Shown: piece after piece, positions 97-27,386 of the stretch
Position numbering within the stretch: the stretch's first letter is position 1
How the letters are laid out: each line of letters starts with the position of its first letter
Source of the DNA: Eggerthellaceae bacterium
GTDB lineage: Bacteria; Actinomycetota; Coriobacteriia; Coriobacteriales; Eggerthellaceae
NCBI GenBank assembly: GCA_017459805.1
Contig: JAFUCE010000006.1
Location: forward strand, 1 to 33,146
Length of the DNA: 33,146 nucleotides
Reading direction: 5' to 3'
Program-made: the position numbers and the translations under genes
Notes under the pieces: model-generated
What the model was told of the DNA's origin: nothing
What the model saw: only the letters and a program-made list of their open reading frames with translations
The model's database searches: none

Positions 97-1026
97 CTAA
101 AAGAGTCCGTTATACCACTGATTGAGTTCGTTACCTATAAGCATAATAATGACACAGGCAGCCGCAATGGCAGGGCCAAAGCGAATGGGTTTAAAGCCCA
201 AGCGGTCAGGAAGCGTACTGTCGTCATAGTCCGCATCTTCTGTTTGCCCCCGTTCCTGCAGTTCTGTGCCCGAGAAGCTTAAATCCTCTTGTCTGGCCTC
301 CCCTGCTTGCAGCAGTTTTCGCTGGCTTACGAGCGCCATAATAATGCCAATAATGCAGGCAAACATAATAAGGAACAGGCATTGCTGCCAGCCGAAATAA
401 ACGCCTGCTACAAAGAAGAGCTTGATGTCGCCACCGCCCATGCTGTCGCGCTTGAAAACGCGGTCGGCCACCATAACCACCACAGTCAGCGGAAGGGCGA
501 TTGCGAACCCGCCAACGAGTGAATCAATGACGGCGGTGCGTGTATCGATCTGGCCAAGCACTGGACCAGCAATCACAAGGTAGACCACATGCACGAGCAG
601 GGCAACAATAATGCACCAGTCAGGAATAGTGCGTGAATCAAGATCGACGAGCGAAAGGTAAAGCAAAAGGCAGGCAAAAATGAGAAACTCAATGGTGCGC
701 AGCGAAAGCCCCGCTGGCGAGGCAGCCTGCGTCCACACGATGGCCGCAAACACGAGGCCACATAGTAGTTCCGTTATGGGGTAACGAAGCGACAAGCGGC
801 TTCCACAATGTTTGCAGGTGCCACCCTGGATAAGCCAGCTCAAGACTGGCACCAATTCAGAGACGCTCAGAGTGTGGCCGCAGGATTGACAATGGCTCCG
901 TCCCCGAAGCACGCTTTCGCCCCTTTGGCGTCGAAGGGCAGCGCAATTGATAAAGCTGCCCATACAAAGCCCCAGGATAAAGGCCAGAAACACAAGTAGC
1001 GCAAGAATTGTTGGCGTAACAAACAA
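97..1026 (-). CDS. pilD: Prepilin peptidase (A24 family, PilD/ComC type)
   Basis: This membrane aspartyl protease cleaves, and probably N-methylates, type IV prepilins. The N-terminal zinc-type cysteine pairs are visible near residues 46-75 (CQSC and CKHC). The two catalytic aspartate motifs are present: LVDLDSRTIPDW near residue 127 and GGGDIK near residue 198. Multiple hydrophobic segments span the chain. The start is a TTG, chosen because AGGAAG lies 5 bases upstream on the minus strand; there is no earlier ATG. An acidic insertion of about 40 residues sits before the usual FGPxIA motif near the C-terminus, which makes the 309-residue protein slightly longer than many homologues. It lies downstream of the major pilin and is separated from it by a terminator-like hairpin. 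Its substrates should be the five prepilins encoded in this window. The family assignment is secure; the role of the acidic loop is unknown. Confidence 0.95.
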   Translation of the reverse strand: MFVTPTILALLVFLAFILGLCMGSFINCAALRRQRGESVLRGRSHCQSCGHTLSVSELVPVLSWLIQGGTCKHCGSRLSLRYPITELLCGLVFAAIVWTQAASPAGLSLRTIEFLIFACLLLYLSLVDLDSRTIPDWCIIVALLVHVVYLVIAGPVLGQIDTRTAVIDSLVGGFAIALPLTVVVMVADRVFKRDSMGGGDIKLFFVAGVYFGWQQCLFLIMFACIIGIIMALVSQRKLLQAGEARQEDLSFSGTELQERGQTEDADYDDSTLPDRLGFKPIRFGPAIAAACVIIMLIGNELNQWYNGLF

Positions 1027-1093: not shown

Positions 1094-1504
1094 CTAGCCT
1101 TCGGGGAATTCGAAACCTGCGCCACCGTTGCCCTTGCCCGTCGTCGTGACGTGAGCACCATTGTCGAAGAACTCAACAACAACAGAGTCGGTACGGTCGG
1201 AGAAGGTAAAGGCCTGAGAATTGCCATCGGCAAAAAGCACGATAACCTTATGGTCTTGCAAATCCGAGAAGGTAGCGCGCTGAGAATCGTCGGTTGCGCT
1301 CATCCAGTCGGCCTGAGCAAGTGCATAGAGAGCACGAGCATTTGCCTTGTCAGCCGTGTCTTTTGCGTTGTCGAGCTGGGCGGCAAATGCAGGAATAGCA
1401 ATTGCAACAAGCACCGCAATAATGGCGATAACAATCAAAAGCTCCATGAGGGTGAAGCCAGATTCACTGCGCTTTTGCTTACGCATGTTCAAAAGCTTGT
1501 TCAT
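1094..1504 (-). CDS. pilA: Major type IV prepilin (PilA-like)
   Basis: This 136-residue protein has a class III leader ending in SG, followed by FTLMELLIVIAIIAVLVAIA. The glutamate at mature position 5 and the long hydrophobic helix are both present. The C-terminal part is small, with no cysteines and a glycine-rich end. It is most likely the main pilus subunit: it has the standard small-pilin size, an excellent Shine-Dalgarno (AAGGAG at 1514-1519), its own TATAAT promoter and its own terminator. The leader is about 17 residues (MNKLLNMRKQKRSESG). Cleavage by the neighbouring PilD and polymerisation by PilB/PilC are inferred from family knowledge. It stands apart from the other pilus genes across a repeat-rich non-coding stretch, which fits independent and strong expression. 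Confidence 0.93.
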   Translation of the reverse strand: MNKLLNMRKQKRSESGFTLMELLIVIAIIAVLVAIAIPAFAAQLDNAKDTADKANARALYALAQADWMSATDDSQRATFSDLQDHKVIVLFADGNSQAFTFSDRTDSVVVEFFDNGAHVTTTGKGNGGAGFEFPEG

Positions 1505-2359: not shown

Positions 2360-3565
2360 CTAGAACCCTCCATACATCGTAAACATGGGCAGATAGACCG
2401 CCAAGAGGATGAAGCACACCACGGCTGCCAGCACAACAATGATGATGGGCTCGAGCAAGGACAGTGCCCGTGTGGAGGTGGTTTCAACCTCGTTGGCATA
2501 GTAGTCTGCCATGACTTCAAGCGTATTTTCCAAGGAACCAGTCTGTTCGCCTATGCCAGTCATTTCAACGACCAGGTCGGGGAAGGCTTTGGTTTTAGCC
2601 AAGCTCGTTGAAAGAGGCTTGCCCGCTTCTACATCCACCTGAGTCGATGCCAAGCACGATGCCATATAGGCATTCGACAATGAACGTGCCGTCACATCAA
2701 TGGCATCGGTCACGGGAAGACCAGCCGCCATCATCATCGACATGGTTGAAGCATATTGATGCGCGCCATTGTTTTCGCTGATTTTCCCTAAAACGGGAAT
2801 GGAAAGCCCCAGCTTGCTCCAGCTTTCGCGGAATGATTTGTTGCGCTTGGCAAGCTGCAAAGCCAGCAGCGCCAAAACAACAATAAGGGCTACGAGCAAA
2901 AACCACTTGCTCCACCAGTTCGACGAATCGATGAGGAAGCGGGTAATGGCGGGCAATTCAAGGTTCATCGCTTCAAAGGTCCGCGCGAAAGCGGGCACAG
3001 CGAATACCATGATAATGGCAACTACGATAACCGCAAGCACCGCAACAAAGGCAGGATAGATGAGTGCGCTTTTTGCCCGCGACTTAGCCTTCGATGAACG
3101 CTCGTAATAGGCAGCCATGCGCTTGAACACTTCTTCTAAGGTGCCTGAAGCTTCGCCCGCGCGTACCGACTCAATAAAGGTTGACGGCAGATCTTTGCCA
3201 TGTTTAGAAAAACTATCAGCAAGCCCGTAACCAGCAGAAACATCACTTGCCACTTCGTTGAGCACCGTCTTAAGGCGCTTGTCCGTAGTCTGCCCCGCCA
3301 CCAGTTCAAGGGTGCGCACAATGGGCATGCCAGCCTGCAAAATAATAGAGAACTGATTGCACATGACCGAAAGCTCTTTGTCACGCGTACGCGTGCTTCC
3401 CAAGAAAAGGTCTCTACCTCCTGCGGGAGCAGATTCCTTAATGCTTTCAACTATCAAGCCGCCTTCGCGCAGCTTTTCAATGGCTTCTTCTGGCGTGTTT
3501 GCTTCAACAACGCCGTCAACGGAAGCACCTGAAACCGAACGCCCTTTGTAATTAAATGCCTTCAT
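2360..3565 (-). CDS. pilC: Type IV pilus inner-membrane platform protein PilC (GspF family)
   Basis: This is the polytopic membrane platform that couples the assembly and retraction ATPases to pilin insertion and extraction. At 401 residues it has the normal length for the family. An N-terminal soluble segment (MKAFNYKGRSVSGASVDGVV) matches the start of GspF/PilC proteins. Two T2SSF repeats follow, roughly residues 65-190 and 265-390, each ending in a hydrophobic helix, and the protein closes with a transmembrane helix and the short tail MFTMYGGF. The start is an ATG with AAGGA about 10 bases upstream. It follows pilT by 15 bases and ends the pilB-pilT-pilC run, so it is probably co-transcribed with them. 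Confidence 0.95.
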   Translation of the reverse strand: MKAFNYKGRSVSGASVDGVVEANTPEEAIEKLREGGLIVESIKESAPAGGRDLFLGSTRTRDKELSVMCNQFSIILQAGMPIVRTLELVAGQTTDKRLKTVLNEVASDVSAGYGLADSFSKHGKDLPSTFIESVRAGEASGTLEEVFKRMAAYYERSSKAKSRAKSALIYPAFVAVLAVIVVAIIMVFAVPAFARTFEAMNLELPAITRFLIDSSNWWSKWFLLVALIVVLALLALQLAKRNKSFRESWSKLGLSIPVLGKISENNGAHQYASTMSMMMAAGLPVTDAIDVTARSLSNAYMASCLASTQVDVEAGKPLSTSLAKTKAFPDLVVEMTGIGEQTGSLENTLEVMADYYANEVETTSTRALSLLEPIIIVVLAAVVCFILLAVYLPMFTMYGGF

Positions 3566-3580
3566 GAAGTGCTATTCCTT

Positions 3581-4654
3581 TCACCCTCGCACGCTGCGAG
3601 AAAGGTAGTCCTTGTCATGGGCAACCTCGAGGGCGGTCTGCGTACTAATTAGGTTAGACCGCACCATACGCACCAGCATATTGTCGAAGGTAATGGAGCC
3701 TTCGTCAGCAGTCGTTGCTATGGTGTTGGCAATCTGGGGTGTTTTGCCTTCACGAATAAGGTTGCGAATAGCGGGGTTGACCATCATGAGTTCGCAAGCC
3801 AGCACGCGCCCCTCGCCCGACTTTGCGGGCAGCAATTGCTGGGCAAGCACCGCTTCCAGCGTGGTGGAAAGCTGCATGCGAATCTGCTGCTGGCGCTCTG
3901 CTGGAAATACGCCCACCAAACGGTCAATAGATTCAGCGGCTGACGCGGTGTGCAGGGTGGCAAAAACCAAGTGCCCCGTTTCCGCTGCAGTCAGAGCCGC
4001 TTCGATGGTCGCAACATCGCGCATCTCGCCAATTAAGATGATGTCAGGGTCTTGACGCAGCGCAGAACGCAAACCACTCGCAAAGCTGACCGTATCCTTT
4101 CCCACCTCGCGCTGGTCTATGCTTGCGCAAACCGGCTCGTAAAGGTATTCGATGGGGTCTTCCAAAGTAACGATGTGGACGCTGCGCTCAAGGTTAATCT
4201 GGTTCAAGATTGAGGCAAGCGTTGTTGACTTACCGCTGCCCGTTTCGCCCGTTACCAGCACAATGCCGCGCGTAAGCTTTGGGAAATCCAAGACCGCGGG
4301 CGGCAGGCCCAAGGAGTCCAGAGGCGGAATGGTGTCGGCAAGGAGGCGAATGGCCATATGGTAAACGCCCTGCACGCGATAGATATTAATACGACAGCGA
4401 ACGTCGGCTGCCGTTATAGCCAGGTCTACTTCGCCCGTCTTTTCAAGGTTTGCGTAAGAATCGCCCGCAATCTGATGCGCCAGGGCATCTATGGCGGCAG
4501 GCGCCAAAATACCCGTTGCAGCATCGCCTAAATCGTGCAGCTGGCCGTCGATACGTACCCGCGGCACACGGCCTGCACTCAGATGAATGTCGGATGCGCC
4601 CATGGCATGAGCAGCGGCAACGAGCTTGTTAAGAAGTTGGCTATGAGAATTCAC
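3581..4654 (-). CDS. pilT: Type IV pilus twitching/retraction ATPase PilT
   Basis: PilT is the hexameric ATPase that depolymerises pili, powering retraction, twitching motility and possibly DNA uptake. The 357-residue protein carries the Walker A motif GETGSGKST near residue 136, an Asp box, the Walker B-type ILIGEMRD, a His box (GHLVFATLHT) and the PilT hallmark AIRNLIRE near residue 292. The hallmark separates it from PilB-type extension ATPases. The start is a GTG with a GGGGG-type ribosome-binding site about 6 bases upstream. It begins 9 bases after the pilB stop, so the two are almost certainly in one operon. Its presence argues for a retractile pilus rather than a simple type II-like secretion pseudopilus. 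Confidence 0.95.
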   Translation of the reverse strand: MNSHSQLLNKLVAAAHAMGASDIHLSAGRVPRVRIDGQLHDLGDAATGILAPAAIDALAHQIAGDSYANLEKTGEVDLAITAADVRCRINIYRVQGVYHMAIRLLADTIPPLDSLGLPPAVLDFPKLTRGIVLVTGETGSGKSTTLASILNQINLERSVHIVTLEDPIEYLYEPVCASIDQREVGKDTVSFASGLRSALRQDPDIILIGEMRDVATIEAALTAAETGHLVFATLHTASAAESIDRLVGVFPAERQQQIRMQLSTTLEAVLAQQLLPAKSGEGRVLACELMMVNPAIRNLIREGKTPQIANTIATTADEGSITFDNMLVRMVRSNLISTQTALEVAHDKDYLSRSVRG

Positions 4655-4663
4655 CGATGCCCC

Positions 4664-6355
4664 CTAGTCTGTGGTATTGATAGTACGATAGGCTTCGTCA
4701 ACCGTGGTAATGCCTGCCAACACCAGGTCGCGGCAATTCGAAAGAATGGGCACGAAGCCCGACTCTTCCACGGCTTGAATCATGTCGTCAAGCGAAGCGC
4801 GGGTATGAATGGCAGACCTGATTTTGTCATCCACCACAAGAATTTCAGCTGCAGCAATACGCCCGCGATAACCGCTGCCAAAACATTCAGAGCAACCACT
4901 TCCGCGGTAAAACTCCACGCCTGCCCCCTCTTCTTCGGTCATGCCAAGCATCGCAAGCTCTTCAGCTGTTGGTGTATAGGAATGCTTGCAATGGGGGCAC
5001 ACGCGCCGCAAAAGACGCTGCGAAATAATACCCTTAAGCGCCGTAGAAACCATATAGGGCGCAACCCCTAAGTCATGCAAGCGGTCGATAGTAGAAAGCG
5101 CATCAGAGGTATGCACCGTGGAAAGCACTAAGTGACCAGTGACCGCAGCGCGCATGGCAATGTCGGCTGTTTCAGAGTCGCGGATTTCACCCACGGCAAT
5201 AATGTCGGGGTCCTGACGCAGAATGGAGCGAAGGCCACTCGCAAAGGTCATCCCCGTCTTTTCATTCACCTGCACCTGATTGATGCCTTCAATCTTGTAT
5301 TCGACGGGGTCTTCCAGCGTAACGATGTTAACCGCTTCGGTATTAAGCTGATTCAACATAGAAAACATGGTCGAGCTCTTACCTGAACCCGTGGGGCCTA
5401 CCAGAAGAATTACCCCTGCCCTATTGCTGAGCAGAGCATTGAACTTTTCCAGGTTTTCACCCGAAAAGCCCAAGCCCTCGGGTGTTGATTCCTGCGCTTC
5501 GCGGTCAAGCAAACGCAGCATGATTTTTTCACCATGCACCGTTGGCAAGGTGGAGGAACGAATGTCGATTTCCTTGCCCTTGACCTGCATAAGGGTGCGG
5601 CCGTCCTGGGGCACGCGACGCTCAGTGACGTCCATGCCGCACATAATCTTGATGCGCGCCGTTACCGACTGTTGCAACTCCTTTGGAATCGCCAAGTCAT
5701 CATGGAGGATACCGTCGATACGCATGCGCACCCGCATATCGTCTTCGCGAGGCTCGATATGAATGTCGGAAACGCGGTCAGCAATGCCGCGCTCGATAAT
5801 GGTGTCAACCAAACGAATAGAAGGTGCCGCCTGCGGGTCTTCCACACGCGCAACCGCAGCACCCGTTGCAAAGGCTGCATCTTCTTCGCTTTCCTGCTGC
5901 ATTTCGCGGATAGCGCGCTTGGCGCCTTCCGTGCCATACAATTCGGAAATAGCATGCTCCATAGCGGCGGCGGTCGCAATCATGGGGACCACCCGCTTGC
6001 GGCTGGCCGCCTTTACTTCTTCACTTGCAATAAAGTTCAAAGGGTCAACCATGGCCAGGTACAATTCGTCGCCACGGGTTTGCACGGGCACAACCGAATA
6101 CTTCTTGGCAATATTTTTTGACACGTATTGCGTCATTTCGGGGGCAATTTCAGTGGTCGTTAAATCGATAAACTCGATACCAAGCTGACGCGTCAGAGCA
6201 CCAATAAGTTGCCGCTCGCTTATCGCACCCGAATCAATGAGCTGTTCGCCCAAACGCTTCTTACTTTCTTTTTGCTGCGCAAGCGCCGTATCAAGCTGAT
6301 CCTGGCTAATAACACCAGCATCTACCAGAAGGTCGCCCAAACGTGTGTATTTCAC
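4664..6355 (-). CDS. pilB: Type IV pilus extension ATPase PilB
   Basis: PilB is the cytoplasmic ATPase that drives pilus polymerisation through PilC. The 563-residue protein begins with an MshEN-type domain (roughly residues 1-150), which in some relatives binds cyclic di-GMP. It is followed by the GspE/PilB ATPase core with Walker A GPTGSGKSS near residue 325, an Asp box, Walker B-type IIAVGEIRD and the His box GHLVLSTVHT. A tetracysteine zinc motif (CPHC...CSEC) sits near residues 455-487, as in classical PilB/GspE. The start is a GTG with AAGGT about 9 bases upstream. It lies 17 bases downstream of the minor prepilin gene. Control by cyclic di-GMP is possible from the MshEN family but is not shown here. 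Confidence 0.95.
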   Translation of the reverse strand: MKYTRLGDLLVDAGVISQDQLDTALAQQKESKKRLGEQLIDSGAISERQLIGALTRQLGIEFIDLTTTEIAPEMTQYVSKNIAKKYSVVPVQTRGDELYLAMVDPLNFIASEEVKAASRKRVVPMIATAAAMEHAISELYGTEGAKRAIREMQQESEEDAAFATGAAVARVEDPQAAPSIRLVDTIIERGIADRVSDIHIEPREDDMRVRMRIDGILHDDLAIPKELQQSVTARIKIMCGMDVTERRVPQDGRTLMQVKGKEIDIRSSTLPTVHGEKIMLRLLDREAQESTPEGLGFSGENLEKFNALLSNRAGVILLVGPTGSGKSSTMFSMLNQLNTEAVNIVTLEDPVEYKIEGINQVQVNEKTGMTFASGLRSILRQDPDIIAVGEIRDSETADIAMRAAVTGHLVLSTVHTSDALSTIDRLHDLGVAPYMVSTALKGIISQRLLRRVCPHCKHSYTPTAEELAMLGMTEEEGAGVEFYRGSGCSECFGSGYRGRIAAAEILVVDDKIRSAIHTRASLDDMIQAVEESGFVPILSNCRDLVLAGITTVDEAYRTINTTD

Positions 6356-6372: not shown

Positions 6373-6945
6373 CTATTCAAAGCTTTCATCGCTTAGCGTT
6401 TTGCACACAAATTCACAGGCCCGCGAGTATGTTCCATTCGGCATAACAATGCTGTAGTGCGCCGTGAACACATTCGTGTCGCATGAATACTCGAGGTTAA
6501 AATCACTTATTTCAAAATCGGTATAAATGCCCGAAGATTTCGGAATGAATTGCACTCCGCCAGGACTGATGAGGGCAATTTTGCCGTCGGATATACCAAT
6601 CTGCCCAGAGCGCACCGCTGCACCCGACGAGTCGAAGTAAGAGTCGGAGTCGAAACTCGGATCGCTCACGTCGCCCGCCCCATAGGGCGCATGCACGCTT
6701 GCGTAGCGCAAGACATCGCTTAGGGCTGTTTCAATGGACTGTTCAAGAACAGCGGCATTCGATGCCGTCTGCGTTTGCTCCATAACACGCGTACCTGTCA
6801 GCATGGCGGTGGTAACCACAAAACCTAAAATGGCAAGAACAAGAAGGGCTGCAAGTACTTCTATAAGCGTAAAACCCGCCTGAGCACGACGTGGTGCTTG
6901 CGCATCGGTTGGACCCGGGATATGTTTCTTGAAATGCATCATCAT
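6373..6945 (-). CDS. Minor type IV prepilin (PilW/GspJ-like position)
   Basis: This 190-residue protein has a prepilin leader ending in QAG, followed by FTLIEVLAALLVLAILGFVV. Glutamate at mature position 5 is present. The C-terminal half is a soluble pilin-type domain with two cysteines (YSCDTN and RACEFVC regions). The start lies in a run of three ATGs. The first overlaps the TAA of the preceding gene by one base (TAATG), and no good ribosome-binding site is seen, so translational coupling is likely. By order and length it resembles the larger minor pilins that help start pilus assembly, but the exact subclass cannot be fixed from the sequence alone. Confidence 0.85.
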   Translation of the reverse strand: MMMHFKKHIPGPTDAQAPRRAQAGFTLIEVLAALLVLAILGFVVTTAMLTGTRVMEQTQTASNAAVLEQSIETALSDVLRYASVHAPYGAGDVSDPSFDSDSYFDSSGAAVRSGQIGISDGKIALISPGGVQFIPKSSGIYTDFEISDFNLEYSCDTNVFTAHYSIVMPNGTYSRACEFVCKTLSDESFE

Positions 6946-7289
6946 TAGTCCAAGCTATACGATTTGTATGTCCCCGTACTTCCGGTATAGATGGTCACGT
7001 CGTAGGCTTCTTCATAACCCGAAAAACGAACCTGCCCTGATTCCTGGGCAGCCCCATCGCGCGCACCTTGCATTTCCGCCGCAAAAAGATCATCGCGAAG
7101 CAATTGGCTGTTTTGGTCGGCTTGATTATTCATGCGCGCCGCTGAAGTAAGAGCGGTATAGAGCATAAGAACCGCCAAAGAACAAATGAGCAGGGCTGCC
7201 AAAGTTTCAACCAGGGATTCGCCGCGCATGCCAAGGCGAGCCCCCAAGGAGGCGCGAAGCTTGCGAGCGTATAATGCCATGCTGCGCAC
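6945..7289 (-). CDS. Minor prepilin with non-canonical cleavage site (GspI/PilV-like position)
   Basis: This small 114-residue protein has a basic N-terminus, then MRG followed by ESLVETLAALLICSLAVLML. Cleavage after the glycine would leave glutamate, not phenylalanine, at mature position 1, while the conserved glutamate at position 5 is kept. The start is a GTG whose G overlaps the TAG of the upstream gene (TAGTG). An ATG three codons inside is an alternative. The C-terminal domain is short. The gene lies between two other prepilin genes with 1-base overlaps at both ends, so it is probably made in fixed ratio with them as part of a tip or initiation complex. Confidence 0.8.
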   Translation of the reverse strand: MRSMALYARKLRASLGARLGMRGESLVETLAALLICSLAVLMLYTALTSAARMNNQADQNSQLLRDDLFAAEMQGARDGAAQESGQVRFSGYEEAYDVTIYTGSTGTYKSYSLD

Positions 7290-8104
7290 TACTCTACCCT
7301 CCCCTTTGAAAAACTCGGGCTTCCCCAGGTGATGGGGTCGCTTATGGTCGTGGTGGTCACTTCGTAGCTTTGCTCAACGCCATGGCCATATTCATTGGAT
7401 GCCGGCTCATGATTACCCGTCACTGGATTAATGGGCGTCATGTTTTCGTCAATCCAGGAAACGGAGCCGCCCTCGCCGTCCCATTCCCATCCATCAAGAT
7501 GCGTATCATTTTTCAGCGTGGTCACCTGCTCCTTTGCTTCACCGCGCACTGAAGGAACATGCACGACCATGGCATAACCGTAGCTGCCATCATCGGGTGA
7601 GGCGCTCAGCTCAATGTTGATGTTGTATTCGCTATCCATAAAAAAGGCGGCGTTCACGCTTTGGAGCCCGTCGGCTTCAATGGTAAATTCGCGCGAGAAA
7701 TCGCCTACGCCTGTGGCGGGGTCAATAGAGCAAAAAGCTTCTTCCATAAGCTGGGTAAGAGCTGTTGTACCAGACGCACTAAAGCTGGGTTGCGGATTAG
7801 AAACTATGTTGGCATCGGCATGCGTGTATGTTGGGTGCACGCTCTGGCAAGCATAGGACTTTGTCGTCGTTGAAAGAGCAGCAGAAGGCGCCGTGCGTTT
7901 GAGGTCGTCAGCAATAAGCTGAGCGGCAGAAGCTACCGCGTAGTAGGACTTCGACTGGTTTTGTGCAGACACGCCCTTGCCCGCGTTGGCAGCGGCCGCC
8001 ACAAGCACGACCGCGGCAACCATCGTGCACACCAACACCACCGCAAGGGCAAGGAGAATGGATGCGCCTTGCTGCGACTGATATTTTTTCACGAGCGCGC
8101 GCAT
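7289..8104 (-). CDS. Minor pilin, PilX/GspK-like, lacking Glu5
   Basis: This 271-residue protein has a basic N-terminus and then QQG followed by ASILLALAVVLVCTMVAAVV. Mature position 5 is leucine rather than glutamate. In type II secretion and type IV pili, the GspK/PilX subunit that caps the fibre often lacks this glutamate because no subunit sits above it. The soluble domain contains two cysteines and is rich in Ser, Thr and Asp, typical of exported pilin domains. It starts 3 bases after the giant prepilin stop and overlaps the next gene by one base. The exact homology to PilX or GspK is inferred from length, the N-terminus and gene order. Confidence 0.78.
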   Translation of the reverse strand: MRALVKKYQSQQGASILLALAVVLVCTMVAAVVLVAAAANAGKGVSAQNQSKSYYAVASAAQLIADDLKRTAPSAALSTTTKSYACQSVHPTYTHADANIVSNPQPSFSASGTTALTQLMEEAFCSIDPATGVGDFSREFTIEADGLQSVNAAFFMDSEYNINIELSASPDDGSYGYAMVVHVPSVRGEAKEQVTTLKNDTHLDGWEWDGEGGSVSWIDENMTPINPVTGNHEPASNEYGHGVEQSYEVTTTTISDPITWGSPSFSKGRVE

Positions 8105-8107
8105 GCC

Positions 8108-11100
8108 TTATTCCCACCAATCAAAGCCGTAGTGGACGAATTCACCATCGTTGTTTGTGCACACCGCAGGATACGGGTAGCGATAGTCACTCTGGATCAA
8201 ATGCCCGGGCACAAGACGTACGTCGTAGAAGTAAGCGTTGCCGTAAACAGGAACGTCACCACCGTAGGCAAAGGCAGCCCCAAGGGACGCGCTCTTCAAT
8301 TCATCGGGCGTGCACGAGATTACGCGGTCGTCGTCCATGGCACCCGTAGTAAAGCCGCCACCAGAACCATCGTCCCAGCTCAGGCGATAACAATTGTTGA
8401 GAGTATTGTCGTCTGGGTTAGTAATGTCGAAATGCTCAACAATATCGTTTTCAGTAGCAATAGTGTTACCTTCGGCAAAAGCATAAGCGTAGCAATGAGC
8501 AATTGAACCGCCACCAAATCCGTAGCCGGCAATACCACCCTGGAGCAACTGCCTCCCAGAGCCTGCACCCAAAGCCTGGCCAAAGAGATTGATTTCTACG
8601 GCGTAACAGGAGTTGATAGAACCCCCATTGCTGCCCGTCAGGCCACCAAGCCCAAGGTTTGCCGCACTTGTACAAGTGCTGACCACGGACACATCAACAT
8701 TGGCAGCCGAAGAACGCTCAATAGAACCTACGTTTACCCCAACGAGACCGCCCACGGAAGCGTCGTCAATGTAGGCACTACCCGCATATACCGAAAGACC
8801 TGATGCGCTGCAGCCCTCGACGGTGCCGTCAAGCCAACCGACAAGAGCACCCGCAGCAAGCGTGCCTCCACTCGTTTGACCATAGTGCACAACAGAGGCC
8901 TCGTTAAGCTGCGATCCAACCAAGTGAACATTGGAAACCGTGCCCATGACCGAACCAAACAGGCCCACGTCGTCGCGACCATTGGCACTAATAAAGAAGT
9001 CGATAATCGTATGGTTATGACCGTCATAGCTGCCCATGAAGGGTTCCGTCTTGCTTGCAATGGGCTGCATGGCATAGGTTCCAGACTTAAAGTCAAGCGT
9101 GTCGCCTAAGTAGTTTGACGTGTAATAGCCTTCACCAGAGTCGATGTCGTAGGCCTGAATAATGTGAGCATTCGAAGCCCAATACGCACTCTGTACAGCA
9201 AGACGATTAAGGTGGCGCGGCGTGCGCACATACAGCGAGCTTGTGTCGGGTGCGTCAAGCGAGCCGTCGGCGCCGGGATTGCTTACCAGCATGGCAAAGT
9301 CGGGGTTGTAATAGTAGGAATAGGTTTCTGCCGTCGACCCTGCCGCATCGGCAAAACTGAGTTCAAGCAAATCAGCAAAGGACGTCGCCGTGCGACTAAG
9401 CATCTGCAATTCAAAGGGAAGCTGATAGACGAAGAAGTCGTCAAGCGTAAGGGTTTCGCTTCCATTCCAGTAGTACAGGGAGTCAACGTTAAGTTCGACA
9501 AAGGACCCAGCCTGCGGGACATTAGCACGCGTCAGGCGCTGCTTTTCCCCACCATTCAAGGAGTATTCAAAGCCGCGAATGGCATAGGTCGAAAGGAGGG
9601 CATAGCCATCTTCAACGATAACAATGCCGCCGTTTTCGCCATCAAGCGTGTTGATAATAACAGGCCCATCAGGCGTTTCTTGCGTTCCATAGAAGCCATA
9701 GTCGCCGTCGGCATAGAGTTCGTAGTAAACGAGCATGGGCTTGAAAGAAAGCGAGGAAGGCCAATTGCCCCAATGCTCTTCAAGCACGTTGGCAAAGGGG
9801 AAGGCGCTGCCCATGAGGCTTTCCCGGTATGGGAAGCTATGGTCGGCCGCTAGGCGCATATCGGCAAGATCGCCATAGCTTTTCGCTTCAATGCCTGCAG
9901 GCTGCGGCATCAAGAAACTGTTGTAGCCCACGTCCTGCAAGAAAGCACAGTTGCTGAAGCTTGCGCCTTCGCCGCCGGTGAAACCGCCACCAAGGTCGCT
10001 GTTCACGCGCCCATATGCCATAGTGTTAGTAATACTGCCAGCCGAAGCTTGCCCCGCAATACCGCCACAATAGCCACTCGTATTAATGTCTGAGGTCGAA
10101 TAACAATCCGCAATGCTGCCTCCATCGAAGCTGCCAACGAGGCCGCCCACAATGTCGGCACCAGTCACTTCACCCGACGCGTACGACTGGCTGATACTGC
10201 CTTGGGACGCAAAGCTGCCAACGAGGCCACCCACGCTTATGGCAGAAGGCGCCACCACGTCAATCGCAGCAAAGGAGCGAGCGATGTTCGCGCTGCCCGT
10301 AGCCAAGCCCACAAGACCGCCCACAGCATCGCTTGCATCCGATGAAACGGTATGGGTGGAAACCTTGTCGAGGGCGGAAGCTTCGCGCACTTCAAGGCGC
10401 ACCCCACAGTTTTCGATGCTTCCCTGAAGTTCGCCACACAGCGCACCGCAGGGGCCACCGCCATAAACCTGCGGGTCAACGAGAATAGTGTTGCGTACCG
10501 CCTGAGCACTTTGAATAGTGGCAAAGAGGCCTGTTTCGGCGCTTCCTGCGATATAGAAATCGTTCAACTGATTGCTATTGCCGTCATAGCTCCAGGCCAC
10601 ACCCGCCGTTTCAAGAGGCATAAAACCTGAAGCACCGTCAACCACGCGCGGATCGAGCGGGTTAACATATTCGGTGCTATAAGTATCGAGGTTGTAGTCC
10701 TTGCTTGCACTCGAAAGCTCGCTTACTTCGCTTGACCCCCAATACATCGCATCAAAATCAACGGGGGCAACTTGTATAACCGAACGTGCATCATTTCCTA
10801 TAAGACGCAAGTTATTAATATGGCGCACGTTAGCGACTTCGATATCGCCACTATTGTTTTTCGCGAAAAGGCTGTTGTCTTTAGCCTTGGCCTGCATGTT
10901 TGCTGGCGTAGAAATGACCACTCCATTGCCGTTGTAGAGTACTTCGACCGTTGCTTCTATGTCGGCCCCGGGGCTAAATGTGGGAAACAAATCGGCCAAG
11001 TGGAAGCCTTCACGCATACTGTCGAACACTATGTCAATATCGATATTGCCCGCTGCGTCCAGATGGAAGTCCTGGCCGCCAGTTAGAACAAGGGTTTGGC

Positions 11101-11866
11101 TTTCACCATCGCAGTCCAGCACGATGCGCATTTCCATATCGCGTTCGTTGCTTACCAAAGCAAGGCTTCCAGGGCAAGCAACTTTCAAGAACAATTCTTC
11201 GCCGTTAACGAAGGTCGCATACGGACTGAAATGGTCGGGCAACTCTGAAGAGGCCGTTGTTATGCCACAGTAGTAGCCCACCGGGTACCCACTGCCCGTG
11301 TTCATGCGGTCGGGGCGATTCCTGCTCGCAAGGTTTTGCACATCAGCAAAGCTAAAATCGGGGTCTTCTGAGTAAAACACCGCGTAGACGTCGGTGCCGT
11401 CCGCACGCGGATTAATCTCGAAAATATAGCGGCCGCCCTTTGTGAGCCCATCGAGTACGGATGTGCGCGCAACGACCTCGGCTAATGCCAGGTCAGCATC
11501 GTTTTCAGCAAAAGATGACGCCGCGCCACCCTGTAGGTAGTAGTATTCCACCCAATCTGAGCCAAGCGCATCATGAGGCATGGCACCCAAACTGCCGAGA
11601 TTGCGGTCCTGCCGTGTTTGAAGCACCGCAGCATTAAAGCCGGCATATTCGCCCGATGCTTCCATGGTAATAAATTGGTCTTGAACAGCCACGTATAGTT
11701 CTTTTGCGTAGTTGTCGAGACGATTGATTTCTGAATTACGCGCGATTTGCGCCAGTGAAGGCCCTGCAATAACAAGTATGACCGCCAAAATGGCAATAAC
11801 AACAAGCAGCTCCATGAGCGTGAAACCCGCACGAAAGCGTTGAGAATATTGCCCTATTTTGCCCAC
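8108..11866 (-). CDS. Giant prepilin with two GLUG-repeat blocks, probable pilus-tip adhesin
   Basis: About 1,252 residues, against 120-200 for a normal pilin. The N-terminus is a true prepilin: a leader ending in RAG, then FTLMELLVVIAILAVILVIA with glutamate at mature position 5. Next comes a long region resembling a pilin domain and unknown beta-rich sequence. GLUG-type repeats (VGGLVG and related) occupy about residues 514-633 and again about 964-1133; these usually build beta-helical or adhesive surface domains. The frame is open back to ATGs at 11953 and 11932, but neither has a strong ribosome-binding site. The GTG at 11866 has AAAGG 5 bases upstream and gives a normal 14-residue leader, so I prefer it. 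It heads the minor-pilin genes. A role as an adhesive tip subunit is inference. Confidence 0.85.
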   Translation of the reverse strand: MGKIGQYSQRFRAGFTLMELLVVIAILAVILVIAGPSLAQIARNSEINRLDNYAKELYVAVQDQFITMEASGEYAGFNAAVLQTRQDRNLGSLGAMPHDALGSDWVEYYYLQGGAASSFAENDADLALAEVVARTSVLDGLTKGGRYIFEINPRADGTDVYAVFYSEDPDFSFADVQNLASRNRPDRMNTGSGYPVGYYCGITTASSELPDHFSPYATFVNGEELFLKVACPGSLALVSNERDMEMRIVLDCDGESQTLVLTGGQDFHLDAAGNIDIDIVFDSMREGFHLADLFPTFSPGADIEATVEVLYNGNGVVISTPANMQAKAKDNSLFAKNNSGDIEVANVRHINNLRLIGNDARSVIQVAPVDFDAMYWGSSEVSELSSASKDYNLDTYSTEYVNPLDPRVVDGASGFMPLETAGVAWSYDGNSNQLNDFYIAGSAETGLFATIQSAQAVRNTILVDPQVYGGGPCGALCGELQGSIENCGVRLEVREASALDKVSTHTVSSDASDAVGGLVGLATGSANIARSFAAIDVVAPSAISVGGLVGSFASQGSISQSYASGEVTGADIVGGLVGSFDGGSIADCYSTSDINTSGYCGGIAGQASAGSITNTMAYGRVNSDLGGGFTGGEGASFSNCAFLQDVGYNSFLMPQPAGIEAKSYGDLADMRLAADHSFPYRESLMGSAFPFANVLEEHWGNWPSSLSFKPMLVYYELYADGDYGFYGTQETPDGPVIINTLDGENGGIVIVEDGYALLSTYAIRGFEYSLNGGEKQRLTRANVPQAGSFVELNVDSLYYWNGSETLTLDDFFVYQLPFELQMLSRTATSFADLLELSFADAAGSTAETYSYYYNPDFAMLVSNPGADGSLDAPDTSSLYVRTPRHLNRLAVQSAYWASNAHIIQAYDIDSGEGYYTSNYLGDTLDFKSGTYAMQPIASKTEPFMGSYDGHNHTIIDFFISANGRDDVGLFGSVMGTVSNVHLVGSQLNEASVVHYGQTSGGTLAAGALVGWLDGTVEGCSASGLSVYAGSAYIDDASVGGLVGVNVGSIERSSAANVDVSVVSTCTSAANLGLGGLTGSNGGSINSCYAVEINLFGQALGAGSGRQLLQGGIAGYGFGGGSIAHCYAYAFAEGNTIATENDIVEHFDITNPDDNTLNNCYRLSWDDGSGGGFTTGAMDDDRVISCTPDELKSASLGAAFAYGGDVPVYGNAYFYDVRLVPGHLIQSDYRYPYPAVCTNNDGEFVHYGFDWWE

Positions 11867-12016
11867 GTACGCCTTTCTGTTCTTAGGTGTTGTATGTAGC
11901 TTCTTGTAGGCCCACGTTCTTTCGTTGCTCATACGTTTCTTGTCAACCAGCATATTTTAGCATTTATCGGGCATTTTGTACCAAATTTGTGCGTCTCTTG
12001 CGCTTATAAAGAGGGC

Positions 12017-12183
12017 TGGTGGCAATATGTGACGAAGGGTAGCTGGCGGCAATGAATAGCTGAAAGGTAGTTGGTGGCAATGAATGGCTGAAAGGTAGCT
12101 GGCGGCAATGAATAGCTGAAAGGTAGCTAGCGGCAATGAATGGCTGAAAGGTAGTTGGCGGCAATGAATAGCTGAAAGGTAGT
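12017..12183. repeat. 28-bp tandem repeat array upstream of the giant prepilin
   Basis: Five 28-bp units start at 12044, 12072, 12100, 12128 and 12156, with consensus TGGCGGCAATGAATRGCTGA and then AAGGTAGY. A degenerate 27-base unit precedes them at 12017, and a partial sixth runs into the inverted-repeat element. One site alternates A, G, A, G, A across the five units, which suggests growth by duplication of 56-bp pairs. The period is not a multiple of three, so it is unlikely to be coding. There is no gene between 11954 and 12364. Confidence 0.85.
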
Positions 12184-12186
12184 TGG

Positions 12187-12295
12187 TGGCAAGAAATGAC
12201 GGAGTTGTACGGGTTTGAGTGCGAAAATGGCAAGAAATGACGGAGTTGCACGAGTTAAACTGGAAAAATCCGTACAACTCCGTCATTTCTTGCCA
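12187..12295. repeat. Dispersed inverted-repeat element, copy B
   Basis: Three 26-base arms at 12187-12212, 12228-12253 (direct) and 12270-12295 (inverted) match copy A at 1984-2092 in order and spacing. Arm 1 and arm 3 are perfect complements here over 26 bases. The inner spacer also keeps the GAACTGGAAAAATCC-like stretch found in copy A (AACTGGAAAAATCC identical). It sits next to the 28-bp tandem array. Confidence 0.8.
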
Positions 12296-24165: not shown

Positions 24166-27100
24166 TTAATGCTTAGAAGCGGTTACAAATTTGTTTTTGA
24201 CGCTTTCAGGTACAGCGGACGTCCCACCAAAGACATAGGCCTGCAGGATAAGAGTTTTGTACGCGCTTACAACACTCGTGTTCGAAGTGTTGCTTGCATC
24301 GGCCAACAGGATAACCGAACGGTTCTTTCCGCAGAGAGCCGACCCAGCCAATGCATCCTTCCAACCATTGCTTGGATTGTCGGCACGCGCTAAACCAAGC
24401 TTGTTAAAGGACAGCTTTACTTCTGGCTGGAACTTAATCGAGGCATACTTGTATACGCCACTTCCCCCACCGGTTCCGTTTTTAAGATTGCCTGTGGCCC
24501 ATTCAGCAATAACGCGGCTTGTGGTGTAGGGGTTTGAACCTGCAAGGCGGTTAACCTTTGATGAAGGAATGCCTACGCTTGCCAGCTGCGTTTCGATGGA
24601 TGTGGGGAGCGCAACAGGACCACCTACAATGATGGCATTCTTGAATCCAGCACTTTTGATGTAGTTTAATGTGGTGCTGGAAAGCTTCTTGTTGCTTTCT
24701 GCATAAAGGATGGGGCTTTTTGCTGCGTAGGCATAGGGCGAAACCGAAAGTGCGTCTTTAAATGATGCCTGCGTGGCAATAATAACCGTGCTCGAACGTT
24801 TGGATTGCTTCTTCGCGCACGCGATGGCTTTTTCGGATGCGCTATTGCCAGAAATACGTTGCACGCTGCTTACCTTAGGCAGGGCATTAATCTTGTTTTT
24901 AATAGTGTCACTAAGGTCTTTGGTTGATCCCACGAGATAGACCGTGGTAACACCCATGCGCCGTAGCTCGTTTGCCGTTTCGCTGCTCAAGCTGCTTGTT
25001 GAAGTGGTAAGCAGCGGTGCGCCCAAACTTCCTGCCAAGCCAGCGGCAGCCAAGGAATCTTTAAAGTTCGTATTGGCGGCAACAACTGCCGTTGAGGCAG
25101 TACCAAACTTGGTGGTAATAGCAGCCATGGTGGCAAGTGCGGTTGAACCAGAAATGCGAGTCCATGTGGCATTGGCGCCTGGTTTAATAATGAGCGTATA
25201 GCTCTTGCTGCCCGTCCAGCCGTTCTTGCCCTTAATCGTGGCTTTCTTTGTGCCAGGGCTTGTGTTGTCGGGCGAGAACGACAGGGTAAAGTCGGTGCCT
25301 TCCTTAAGCGTGATGGTTTTGTTGAGGCTTCCCTTAAAGGTGAGCGTCGGTGCTTTCTTCTGAGCCGAACCCGTGTAAGTGGTGGTAATGGTCGTCGCGC
25401 TCATTTGGACACTGCTCATTGAGGCGTATATCGAATACTCCAAGGTAAACGAACCACCATAGTTGCCCTTGCCTGTAATGGTGACCGTCTTTGTGCCTGG
25501 GTTAATGGAGTCGGTTGGATAGGTGACCGTATAGTCAGTGTTAAGTTTCAAGGTGGTGCTGCCAGCTTTTACCGTAACTGCAGGCCTGCGTGCCGTGGCG
25601 CTTTTGTACTCGTATTTGTAGCCGCTTTCGTATCTGTGTTGGTCGCTAGGCTGTTGTGAATTGGGCGAAAACGCGGCGGAAGTGAGAAGCGTCTTGTTCC
25701 CCGAATATACACGTACAATACATTTTGCTGTTTTGCCGCCCAGCTTTACAGTAATGGTAGCTGTACCAGTCTTCGTGCCAGTAGTAATAAGGCCCGTCGA
25801 ATTGACGGAAGCAATTTGCGAATTCGAGCTTGTCCATTGTGCCATAGCAGGAATAACATTGCTGCCCGACGCAGACAGCTTAAGCGTGGTTGATGAATTC
25901 GTATGCATATTGAGCTGTGAAGCAGAAAGGGAAATGGAGTTCACCGTGTGCGTATTGCTGGACAGCGGGTATACGCCACCACCCCAGGAATTGAAGCTCG
26001 TATTTGTGCCCGCGGTGCCTGCAGGCGTCCACTTGGCATGGGTCGAATCCTTGCCTTTCATAACACTGTCAGATTTCAGGAAGAAGTCGGTAGATGGTGT
26101 TTTGTTGTAACCCCCATCAGCATAGTGGTCATTGGCCTGCAGTGGATCATCGTAGGTAACATCGAGATTGTACCAGTAGTAACTGCTTCCCACCTTAAGG
26201 CGCACACGGTTCCAGCCGTGGTTTGCATTGGTGACAAAAGTTGCCTGAATACCCAAGCGCTTCATAGCAGCAATAAAGGCAAGCGAATAACCTTCACACA
26301 CCGGGCTCTTGGTAACAATGGCGCCATAGGCTGTCCAGGGGTCCCAACTGCCGAAGCCCGTCGGGCCACCCTTCAAATAAGCTGCGTAGTTGTATTTGGC
26401 GTTACGCACGAGCCAGTCATGTACGGCTTTTGCTTTTTCAGCGTCAGTGCTGTTCTGGTAACTTTTCGTGGTGTTCACCCACGAAAGCACAGACTGCATA
26501 GCAGTTTCGTACTTAGTCTTCATGGACTTGATGGTGCCAGCTTTGTAGTAGTAGCGAATATATATTTTTGCCAGCACCCTCGTGGTTGTGGTACCCACGT
26601 ATTTTGTTGCTATGCTGCCCGTTGCGGTTTTTCCAACGTAGAACAAATCGGGGTTGTTGTTAACGATTTCTTCAACAAGCGTCTTAGCGTAAGTTTCGGC
26701 ACCGCTGTCAAGAGGGGCATTAAGATCTGACACATCAACAACGCACCAGAGGTCAGTGTCGGTTTGTGCTGCGCCTCCGCTTGAATACGAAAACGAGCTC
26801 TGATATTCAACGTTCATGAGCGCATTTTCCACACGTGCCTTAATTTGGTTGCGCTGTGCCGTTGAAGGCGTTGCGCCCGTGCTTGTGATGGATGAGCTTG
26901 CAAAGGTCGACGCAATGGAAGCCGAAGTGGGCGGGATATAGTTGCCATTTTGAATCAGATTTAAATTATCCGATGCAAAAACAATGGGCATGACAGAAGT
27001 GCTAGTGCTATTAGAGTTCGCACTACTTGTTGTGTTTGCAGGAAGCGAACTTGGATTCGTTGTAGTGGCCGTTTCGGTGGTGGATGGTGTGGTATTGGCG

Positions 27101-27261
27101 CTCGTTGTGAGGGCGCTCGTGCCGTCTGCGAAGGCCTGGAAGGGGAACATGCTCAAAGCCAGGAAAAAGGCAACAAAGCAACTGGCGACCGCTTTTGGCC
27201 GCGAAAAACTAGAGCTGCGCTTTGCTGCAGACTCGACGATATGTCGCTTTTCCTTCGTCAT
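24166..27261 (-). CDS. Secreted transglutaminase-like protein with three CWB2 cell-wall-binding repeats
   Basis: This exported surface protein is 1,031 residues. A signal peptide ends at about residue 45 (SMFPFQAFA|DG), followed by a Ser/Thr/Asn-rich linker to about 100. A transglutaminase-like domain carries the catalytic triad: Cys near 322 (SPVCEGYSLAF), His near 348 (NANHGWN) and Asp near 367 (NLDVTYDDP). A Big2-type Ig-like domain (about 434-519) follows, then two similar Ig-like repeats (about 557-690; each contains a PGTKxxTIxGKxxxxG core). Three CWB2 (PF04122-type) repeats from about 699 to the end probably anchor it to cell-wall polymers. ATG 27261 is chosen over 27285 because AGGAAG lies 7 bases upstream. 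Cross-linking or peptidase activity on surface proteins or peptidoglycan peptides is inferred. Confidence 0.9.
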   Translation of the reverse strand: MTKEKRHIVESAAKRSSSFSRPKAVASCFVAFFLALSMFPFQAFADGTSALTTSANTTPSTTETATTTNPSSLPANTTSSANSNSTSTSVMPIVFASDNLNLIQNGNYIPPTSASIASTFASSSITSTGATPSTAQRNQIKARVENALMNVEYQSSFSYSSGGAAQTDTDLWCVVDVSDLNAPLDSGAETYAKTLVEEIVNNNPDLFYVGKTATGSIATKYVGTTTTRVLAKIYIRYYYKAGTIKSMKTKYETAMQSVLSWVNTTKSYQNSTDAEKAKAVHDWLVRNAKYNYAAYLKGGPTGFGSWDPWTAYGAIVTKSPVCEGYSLAFIAAMKRLGIQATFVTNANHGWNRVRLKVGSSYYWYNLDVTYDDPLQANDHYADGGYNKTPSTDFFLKSDSVMKGKDSTHAKWTPAGTAGTNTSFNSWGGGVYPLSSNTHTVNSISLSASQLNMHTNSSTTLKLSASGSNVIPAMAQWTSSNSQIASVNSTGLITTGTKTGTATITVKLGGKTAKCIVRVYSGNKTLLTSAAFSPNSQQPSDQHRYESGYKYEYKSATARRPAVTVKAGSTTLKLNTDYTVTYPTDSINPGTKTVTITGKGNYGGSFTLEYSIYASMSSVQMSATTITTTYTGSAQKKAPTLTFKGSLNKTITLKEGTDFTLSFSPDNTSPGTKKATIKGKNGWTGSKSYTLIIKPGANATWTRISGSTALATMAAITTKFGTASTAVVAANTNFKDSLAAAGLAGSLGAPLLTTSTSSLSSETANELRRMGVTTVYLVGSTKDLSDTIKNKINALPKVSSVQRISGNSASEKAIACAKKQSKRSSTVIIATQASFKDALSVSPYAYAAKSPILYAESNKKLSSTTLNYIKSAGFKNAIIVGGPVALPTSIETQLASVGIPSSKVNRLAGSNPYTTSRVIAEWATGNLKNGTGGGSGVYKYASIKFQPEVKLSFNKLGLARADNPSNGWKDALAGSALCGKNRSVILLADASNTSNTSVVSAYKTLILQAYVFGGTSAVPESVKNKFVTASKH

Positions 27262-27386
27262 GCTCAAACTTCCTAGTTTGCCCATACGTTTTCAGATATG
27301 CTAAAAACGGTCTTTCAACTGGGAAAACGCACGTACAATGCCAGTTAAAATCAGGCGTGTGGGTAGCGTCCGCCCAGTTTGTCTTA

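Follow-up and report, generated by a model that had tools for sequence, protein, structure and literature searches.

Known Related Proteins and How the Locus Compares

Modular pilins are an established group comprising more than 1,200 proteins in 264 architectures (PMC8179133). Two of them, PilB and PilC of the monoderm S. sanguinis, are adhesive subunits that have been solved structurally and tested for binding (PMC8179133, PMC9934059). They belong to a retractile type IV pilus (T4P), combine a prepilin N-terminus bearing Glu5 with a bulky C-terminal module, have been proposed to sit at the pilus tip, and have a partner minor pilin without Glu5 (PilA in that species). The same traits are found or, for the tip position, proposed for a giant prepilin encoded by an Eggerthellaceae bacterium on contig JAFUCE010000006.1, of which a stretch of 33,146 nucleotides, hereafter the window, was analyzed as a whole. 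However, the S. sanguinis modules are a vWA domain in PilB and a lectin module in PilC, in proteins of about 450-480 residues, whereas the giant has two blocks of GLUG repeats in 1,240 residues, and its partners are K-, I-, and J-like pilins. Neither a vWA nor a lectin domain was found in the giant prepilin.

A second precedent is ComZ of Thermus thermophilus, a structurally solved pilin with a large β-solenoid that has been argued to be located at the tip (PMC6561018). In this diderm the solenoid, of about 380 residues, is inserted inside the pilin fold and DNA binding has been shown (PMC6561018), whereas in the giant, which has over twice the length, the pilin module precedes the GLUG blocks. 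The metallo-IgA1 protease of S. pneumoniae (PMC7695701) resembles the giant in the β-helix of its first GLUG block, by profile and by fold; it is overall a different protein, and the giant is devoid of the catalytic domain. In diderm T4aP, the minor pilins present a very large adhesin at the tip, PilY1/PilC1, much as proposed for the giant, but the cargo encoded in the window is part of the pilin chain. The likeness to PilY1 extends to the split giants of some Coriobacteriia, which are apparently Sec-exported non-pilins. No Pfam match to the PilY1 β-propeller (PF05567) was found in the giant prepilin, and a genome search for this domain was empty, with control genomes equally silent.

The architecture IPR012902-IPR011493 is, as we take it, a prepilin joined to GLUG, and pilins of this kind, if IPR011493 is GLUG, probably have the same domain pairing as the giant. 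A passage of PMC8179133 names the architecture with a presumed M26 peptidase role, in contrast to which the giant has no HExxH motif. Because S. sanguinis PilB/PilC, ComZ, and this architecture had already been described, an earlier interpretation made from the letters alone (the sequence-only reading) was overstated in holding that a prepilin-GLUG fusion in a retractile monoderm pilus looks little described: modular pilins were known, probably including prepilin-GLUG ones (PMC8179133), and the giant is most likely an outsized variant of this idea. Beyond PMC8179133, the literature on GLUG with a pilin or adhesin yielded nothing relevant, and a search on the T4P of Coriobacteriia found no study. 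What we have not found described before is the Coriobacteriia-wide system, the sizes reached, and the alternation of fused and split forms. The family-wide tie to PilB, the far larger relatives, and the split form of a prepilin plus a presumably secreted giant also go beyond the sequence-only reading.

The Giant Prepilin

The gene occupies the minus strand, which the sequence-only reading had not specified, at 8108..11866, and encodes 1252 aa from a GTG codon. The longest ORF (8108-11953) would give 1281 aa from an ATG at 11953; the GTG at 11866 is preferred because AGAAAGG lies immediately 5' of it and because the orthologue in an uncultured Coriobacteriaceae MAG (L004, 59% identical, with a 16-residue leader) begins with GTG too.

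The N-terminus reads VGKIGQYSQRFRAG / FTLMELLVVIAILAVILVIAG, and cleavage by PilD is predicted after Gly14, at the end of the leader VGKIGQYSQRFRAG (11825..11866, minus strand). A class III signal consists of a short hydrophilic leader ending in Gly, followed by about 21 hydrophobic residues with Glu5. Such a signal is found in the giant prepilin by Pfam, NCBIfam, and sequence, with N_methyl matching at RAG / FTLMELL (E=2.1e-6), Glu at +5, and TIGR02532 above its cut-off, as in type IV pilins. Thus, the class III signal with Glu5 that had been read from the sequence was confirmed, and the roughly 1,200 residues said to follow it proved to be about 1,220, bearing two GLUG blocks, in a pilin of about 1,240 residues. 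N_methyl and GLUG occur within one ORF (Pfam), which fits the modular pilin layout of Raynaud et al. (2021).

The pilin module (residues 15-214; 11225..11824, minus strand) is about 200 residues long and conserved through the class; F1, T2, E5, A40, Q48, V149, and G183 of the mature protein are invariant in the 24 relatives aligned. Neither LPXTG nor another anchor was found in the giant prepilin, and cell-wall or C-terminal anchoring was rejected for want of LPXTG.

GLUG Blocks and Predicted Structure

The GLUG family (PF07581) is matched in the giant prepilin over five stretches with E=1.2e-12 and 47.7 bits, above the curated Pfam cut-off of 20.5, which three single repeats also exceed individually. 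In the whole assembly, matches at E<=0.001 are confined to this gene (Pfam). Cores of the G(G/A)xxG type lie, in GTG numbering, at residues 474, 516, 546, 574, 601, and 627 in block 1 and at 1006, 1039, 1074, and 1110 in block 2, spaced 26-42 residues apart inside the blocks; against these ten cores, 5,000 shuffles averaged 0.48 and reached 4 at most. By core positions, the earlier placement of the repeats near residues 514-633 and 964-1133 was correct to about one repeat.

Block 1 (residues 445-664; 9875..10534, minus strand) is predicted to be a β-helix. AlphaFold2, with an input alignment of four same-genus sequences only, returned repeated short strands with a pLDDT of 71-91 over most of these residues, and the best PDB matches of the model are the metallo-IgA1 proteases 6xjb, 7uvk, and 7uvl (Foldseek, prob 0.99-1.00, E 0.002-0.005; prob 1.00 for 6xjb). 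Furthermore, the family profile matches by sequence residues 84-315 of the IgA1 protease chain 7jgj (E=1e-11), and the N-terminal domain of the S. pneumoniae metallo-IgA1 protease has been described as a β-helix (PMC7695701). Because the model, the fold match, the profile match, and the described domain agree, the predicted β-helix of block 1 is well supported.

Outside block 1 the AlphaFold2 confidence is low, including the pilin module beyond its helix and block 2. The region between the pilin module and block 1 (10844..11224, minus strand) is rich in β-strands in a low-confidence model. The model of the C-terminal half (mean pLDDT 37.7) was discarded save for a small β domain between the blocks (residues 711-858; 9293..9736, minus strand; pLDDT about 60-80), and block 2, with its cores at residues 1006-1114 (8525..8851, minus strand), is delimited by its GLUG repeats and has no reliable model. 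Of the separate modules that structure prediction had been expected to reveal, block 1 and the domain between the blocks do fold in the models, and block 2 was left without one.

The Pilus Operon

As the sequence-only reading had it, the giant prepilin is the first gene of a minor-pilin operon, here a minus-strand operon of a retractile monoderm pilus with four minor pilins, in which K-like, I-like, and J-like genes, pilB, pilT, pilC, a candidate major pilin, and pilD follow. The K-like gene (7289..8104, minus strand) starts 3 nt past the stop of the giant, and its N-terminus, QQG / ASILLAL, has Leu, not Glu, at +5. Glu5 is likewise found in none of 15 aligned relatives, one of which touches PilX_N at E=0.047; profiles gave no family match for the K-like pilin, and no PDB match to GspK was found. 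We call it a K-like (PilX/GspK-type) minor pilin, after the K subunit of the HIJK tip complex, which lacks Glu5 and resembles GspK/PilX, on account of its position, the missing Glu5, and a start common to the 15 relatives. The direct coupling claimed earlier agrees with the gap of 3 nt and the lack of Glu5.

The remaining genes, all on the minus strand, are those of the I-like (6945..7289; G / ESLVETL) and J-like minor pilins (6373..6945; G / FTLIEVL, N_methyl E=3.4e-7), the extension ATPase PilB with an MshEN domain (4664..6355; profile matches), the retraction ATPase PilT (3581..4654), which is a true PilT/PilU-family match (TIGR01420, 409 bits against a cut-off of 319), the platform protein PilC (2360..3565; T2SSF E=2.8e-59), a candidate major pilin (1094..1504; N_methyl E=4.6e-8, weak PilA/ComGC matches), and the prepilin peptidase PilD (97..1026; A24_N_bact, Peptidase_A24). 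By gene content, the giant thus shares an operon with pilD, pilB, and pilC, by whose products its processing and assembly are predicted. The contig ends beyond pilD. In L004, pilM- and pilN-like genes come after pilD, and a pilM match opens contig C124, where the next two ORFs resemble pilN and pilO, as judged from position and resemblance. The gene set of a monoderm retractile T4P has been defined for S. sanguinis (PMC6916266), and by that definition the predicted genes of the window genome make up the full set.

A second PilT-family ATPase is encoded apart from the operon (G000:C12:40738-41769). A promoter and terminator scan 5' of the operon performed no better than shuffles. Just upstream of the giant prepilin gene, a 28-bp tandem repeat of 5.7 copies occupies window positions 12034-12192, and copies of an interspersed palindromic repeat with the core CAACTCCGTCATTTCTTGCCA lie at 12187-12295 and 2025-2092, i.e., one upstream of the operon and another between pilC and the major pilin gene, which are unusually far apart. 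The assembly has 42 forward and 42 reverse matches to CAACTCCGTCATTTCTTGCCA with <=2 mismatches, and none to the reversed control. The window also encodes, at 24166-27285 of the minus strand, a 1,039-aa surface protein with a transglutaminase core, Big_2, and CW_binding_2 repeats.

Distribution and Variability

The pilin module is present in 33 of 138 genomes of the family and in all 30 that bear PilB, the presence of PilB being read as the weaker match of the PilT-family search in the same 138 genomes; these genomes are not independent (14 of 48 genera). Three genomes have the module without a PilB match (G031, G035, and G122), and each is 70-74% complete. Many genomes of the family lack a PilB match and encode just one PilT-family protein. 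The full-length module extends to other families of the order and, among the samples searched, occurs only within Coriobacteriia; elsewhere in the phylum the matches are limited to the first 30-108 module positions and mostly fall in ordinary small pilins. The giant adjoins the K-, I-, and J-like pilins, pilB-pilT-pilC, or both in nearly all of the loci read; G069 and G070 have a different gene order and match half of the pilin module only. The length of the giant in relatives ranges from 534 aa up to 4,252 (G406, G300) and 4,609 aa (G273). Two further giants with many GLUG-type cores, L070:1-6880 (at least 2,293 aa) and L071:1775-9718 (2,647 aa), are distant from the pilus operon, and no prepilin start was found in either.

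Variability was followed in three congeneric pairs with PilB 97-99% identical (G067/G065, G068/G065, and G051/G054). The mature giants are 88-98% identical over the first 60 residues, 47-59% over residues 61-215, and 26-47% over the rest; in the same pairs, identity is 96-99% for PilT, 48-53% for the major pilin, and 40-77% for the K-, I-, and J-like pilins. Hypervariability unique to the giant was therefore rejected, because the major and minor pilins used as controls vary as well: the putatively exposed subunits all appear to change or be swapped fast, the giant most in most pairs, which fits surface exposure. The pair G075/G076 (L052/L053) shows the reverse, a giant 88% identical next to minor and major pilins of 41-62%, a pattern that suggests piecewise exchange of pilin genes.

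Proposed Role and Alternatives

We read the giant as a modular type IV pilin that would present a β-helical arm at the pilus tip for adhesion, with a probability of about 0.7; leader processing, tip position, adhesion, and ligand are what we infer. PilD would remove the leader after Gly14, and the N-terminal helix with Glu5 would admit the giant to the pilus together with the K-, I-, and J-like minor pilins. The cargo, of about 1,000 residues in two GLUG blocks joined by β domains, appears too bulky for the shaft, which makes the minor-pilin complex at the tip its most likely place, a placement modelled on S. sanguinis PilB/PilC and on ComZ (PMC8179133, PMC9934059, PMC6561018). A single copy may be present there, as the sequence-only reading had it. 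A flexible linker could permit a modular pilin along the shaft, as PMC8179133 allows, and in the giant such a linker could place the protein there instead of at the tip. At the tip, the GLUG blocks would reach out as an extended arm to bind a ligand, which may be a glycan or protein of the host or another microbe, and extension by PilB followed by retraction by PilT would draw the cell to whatever the tip holds. The adhesive role is supported by the hypervariable cargo, as would be expected of an exposed ligand-binding part, and by the adhesin-stalk domains SpaA, Cna_B, and MBG_2 of fused or split relatives. If this is true, a probable adhesin can be named for the retractable pilus of many members of the Coriobacteriia, a class of gut bacteria, and type IV pilus machinery may accommodate subunits that exceed the usual size ten- to thirty-fold. 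Shuttle vectors exist for commensal Coriobacteriia (PMC9734109).

An unlikely alternative is that the giant is the DNA receptor of a competence pilus, which would catch DNA with a β-solenoid at the tip and pull it toward ComEC. ComZ, which is argued to sit at the tip with its large β-solenoid, does bind DNA (PMC6561018), and the window genome encodes a ComEC-type protein. However, the cargo is strongly acidic (39 K+R vs 121 D+E, pI 4.1), as in relatives, and it is hypervariable, which non-specific DNA binding would not need; the adhesin-stalk domains of relatives argue in the same direction. The charge is not decisive, since ComZ likewise has no clear basic patch (PMC6561018).

The occurrence of the module in every PilB-bearing genome of the family, regardless of cargo, would also suit a subunit that mainly primes pilus assembly and whose cargo is a passenger with no specific ligand. 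This is improbable given that every genome read retains a large cargo, in which adhesin-type domains recur; moreover, priming and adhesion are compatible. A function outside the pilus, as a membrane-anchored surface protein that bears a prepilin-type signal and just happens to be encoded in the same operon, is very improbable in view of the fixed position among minor-pilin genes, the tie to PilB, and a Glu5 that all 24 aligned relatives share. IgA1 metalloproteases contain GLUG repeats, and a surface peptidase of the M26 kind would agree with a weak NCBIfam ZmpA match over the repeats and with the IgA1 protease match of block 1, but the part in common is the N-terminal β-helix of the protease, not its catalytic domains, and this hardly credible candidate was rejected at the motif level, as the HExxH zinc motif is missing from the giant prepilin and from every relative tested.

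Fused and Split Giants

A second family has a genus in which five genomes (G333, G389, G351, G410, and G327) encode a prepilin of 786-883 residues with the gene of a putatively exported giant close behind. The partner giants have 5,844 (G333), 4,137 (G389), at least 6,645 (G351), and at least 6,229 residues (G327), the last two values being lower bounds from ORFs open at the ends of the stretches read. In G406, G300, and G273 of the same genus, a single ORF encodes a prepilin of 4,252-4,609 residues instead. The G406 protein aligns with the small prepilins over its residues 19-790 (E=4e-142, 6e-177). Its match to the partner spans residues 888-3627 and begins at about residue 113 of the partner, whose signal peptide is thus excluded. 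The J-like gene precedes fused and split forms alike; the partner giants scanned contain SpaA, Cna_B, MBG_2, or Flg_new domains, and the fused proteins combine N_methyl and SpaA on one chain. As judged from these alignments, the single ORF and the prepilin with its putatively secreted giant are a fusion/fission pair; the partner would be exported and would dock on the small prepilin. A similar split is found in the window's own family, in G066 and G020.

More tentatively, with odds a little short of even, the Coriobacteriia may have a class-specific tip system in which a conserved carrier pilin presents an exchangeable, hypervariable mega-adhesin. The adhesin would come either fused to the carrier, in prepilins reaching about 4,600 residues, or as an independent giant exported by Sec and docked on the carrier, and fusion and fission would link the two states. 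Such a system would be the monoderm equivalent of PilY1, switching between the roles of subunit and partner, and the fused and split giants of one genus would serve as a natural experiment on the attachment of tip adhesins to pili.

The split loci read include L104:201-17735, L105:80-12493, L106:66-20000, and L107:1-18687, which encode putatively exported proteins of 4,137 to >6,600 residues beside a small modular prepilin. SpaA/MBG_2/Flg_new domains occur in the two of these giants that were scanned, and some of the signal peptides end in LYGC, perhaps a lipobox.
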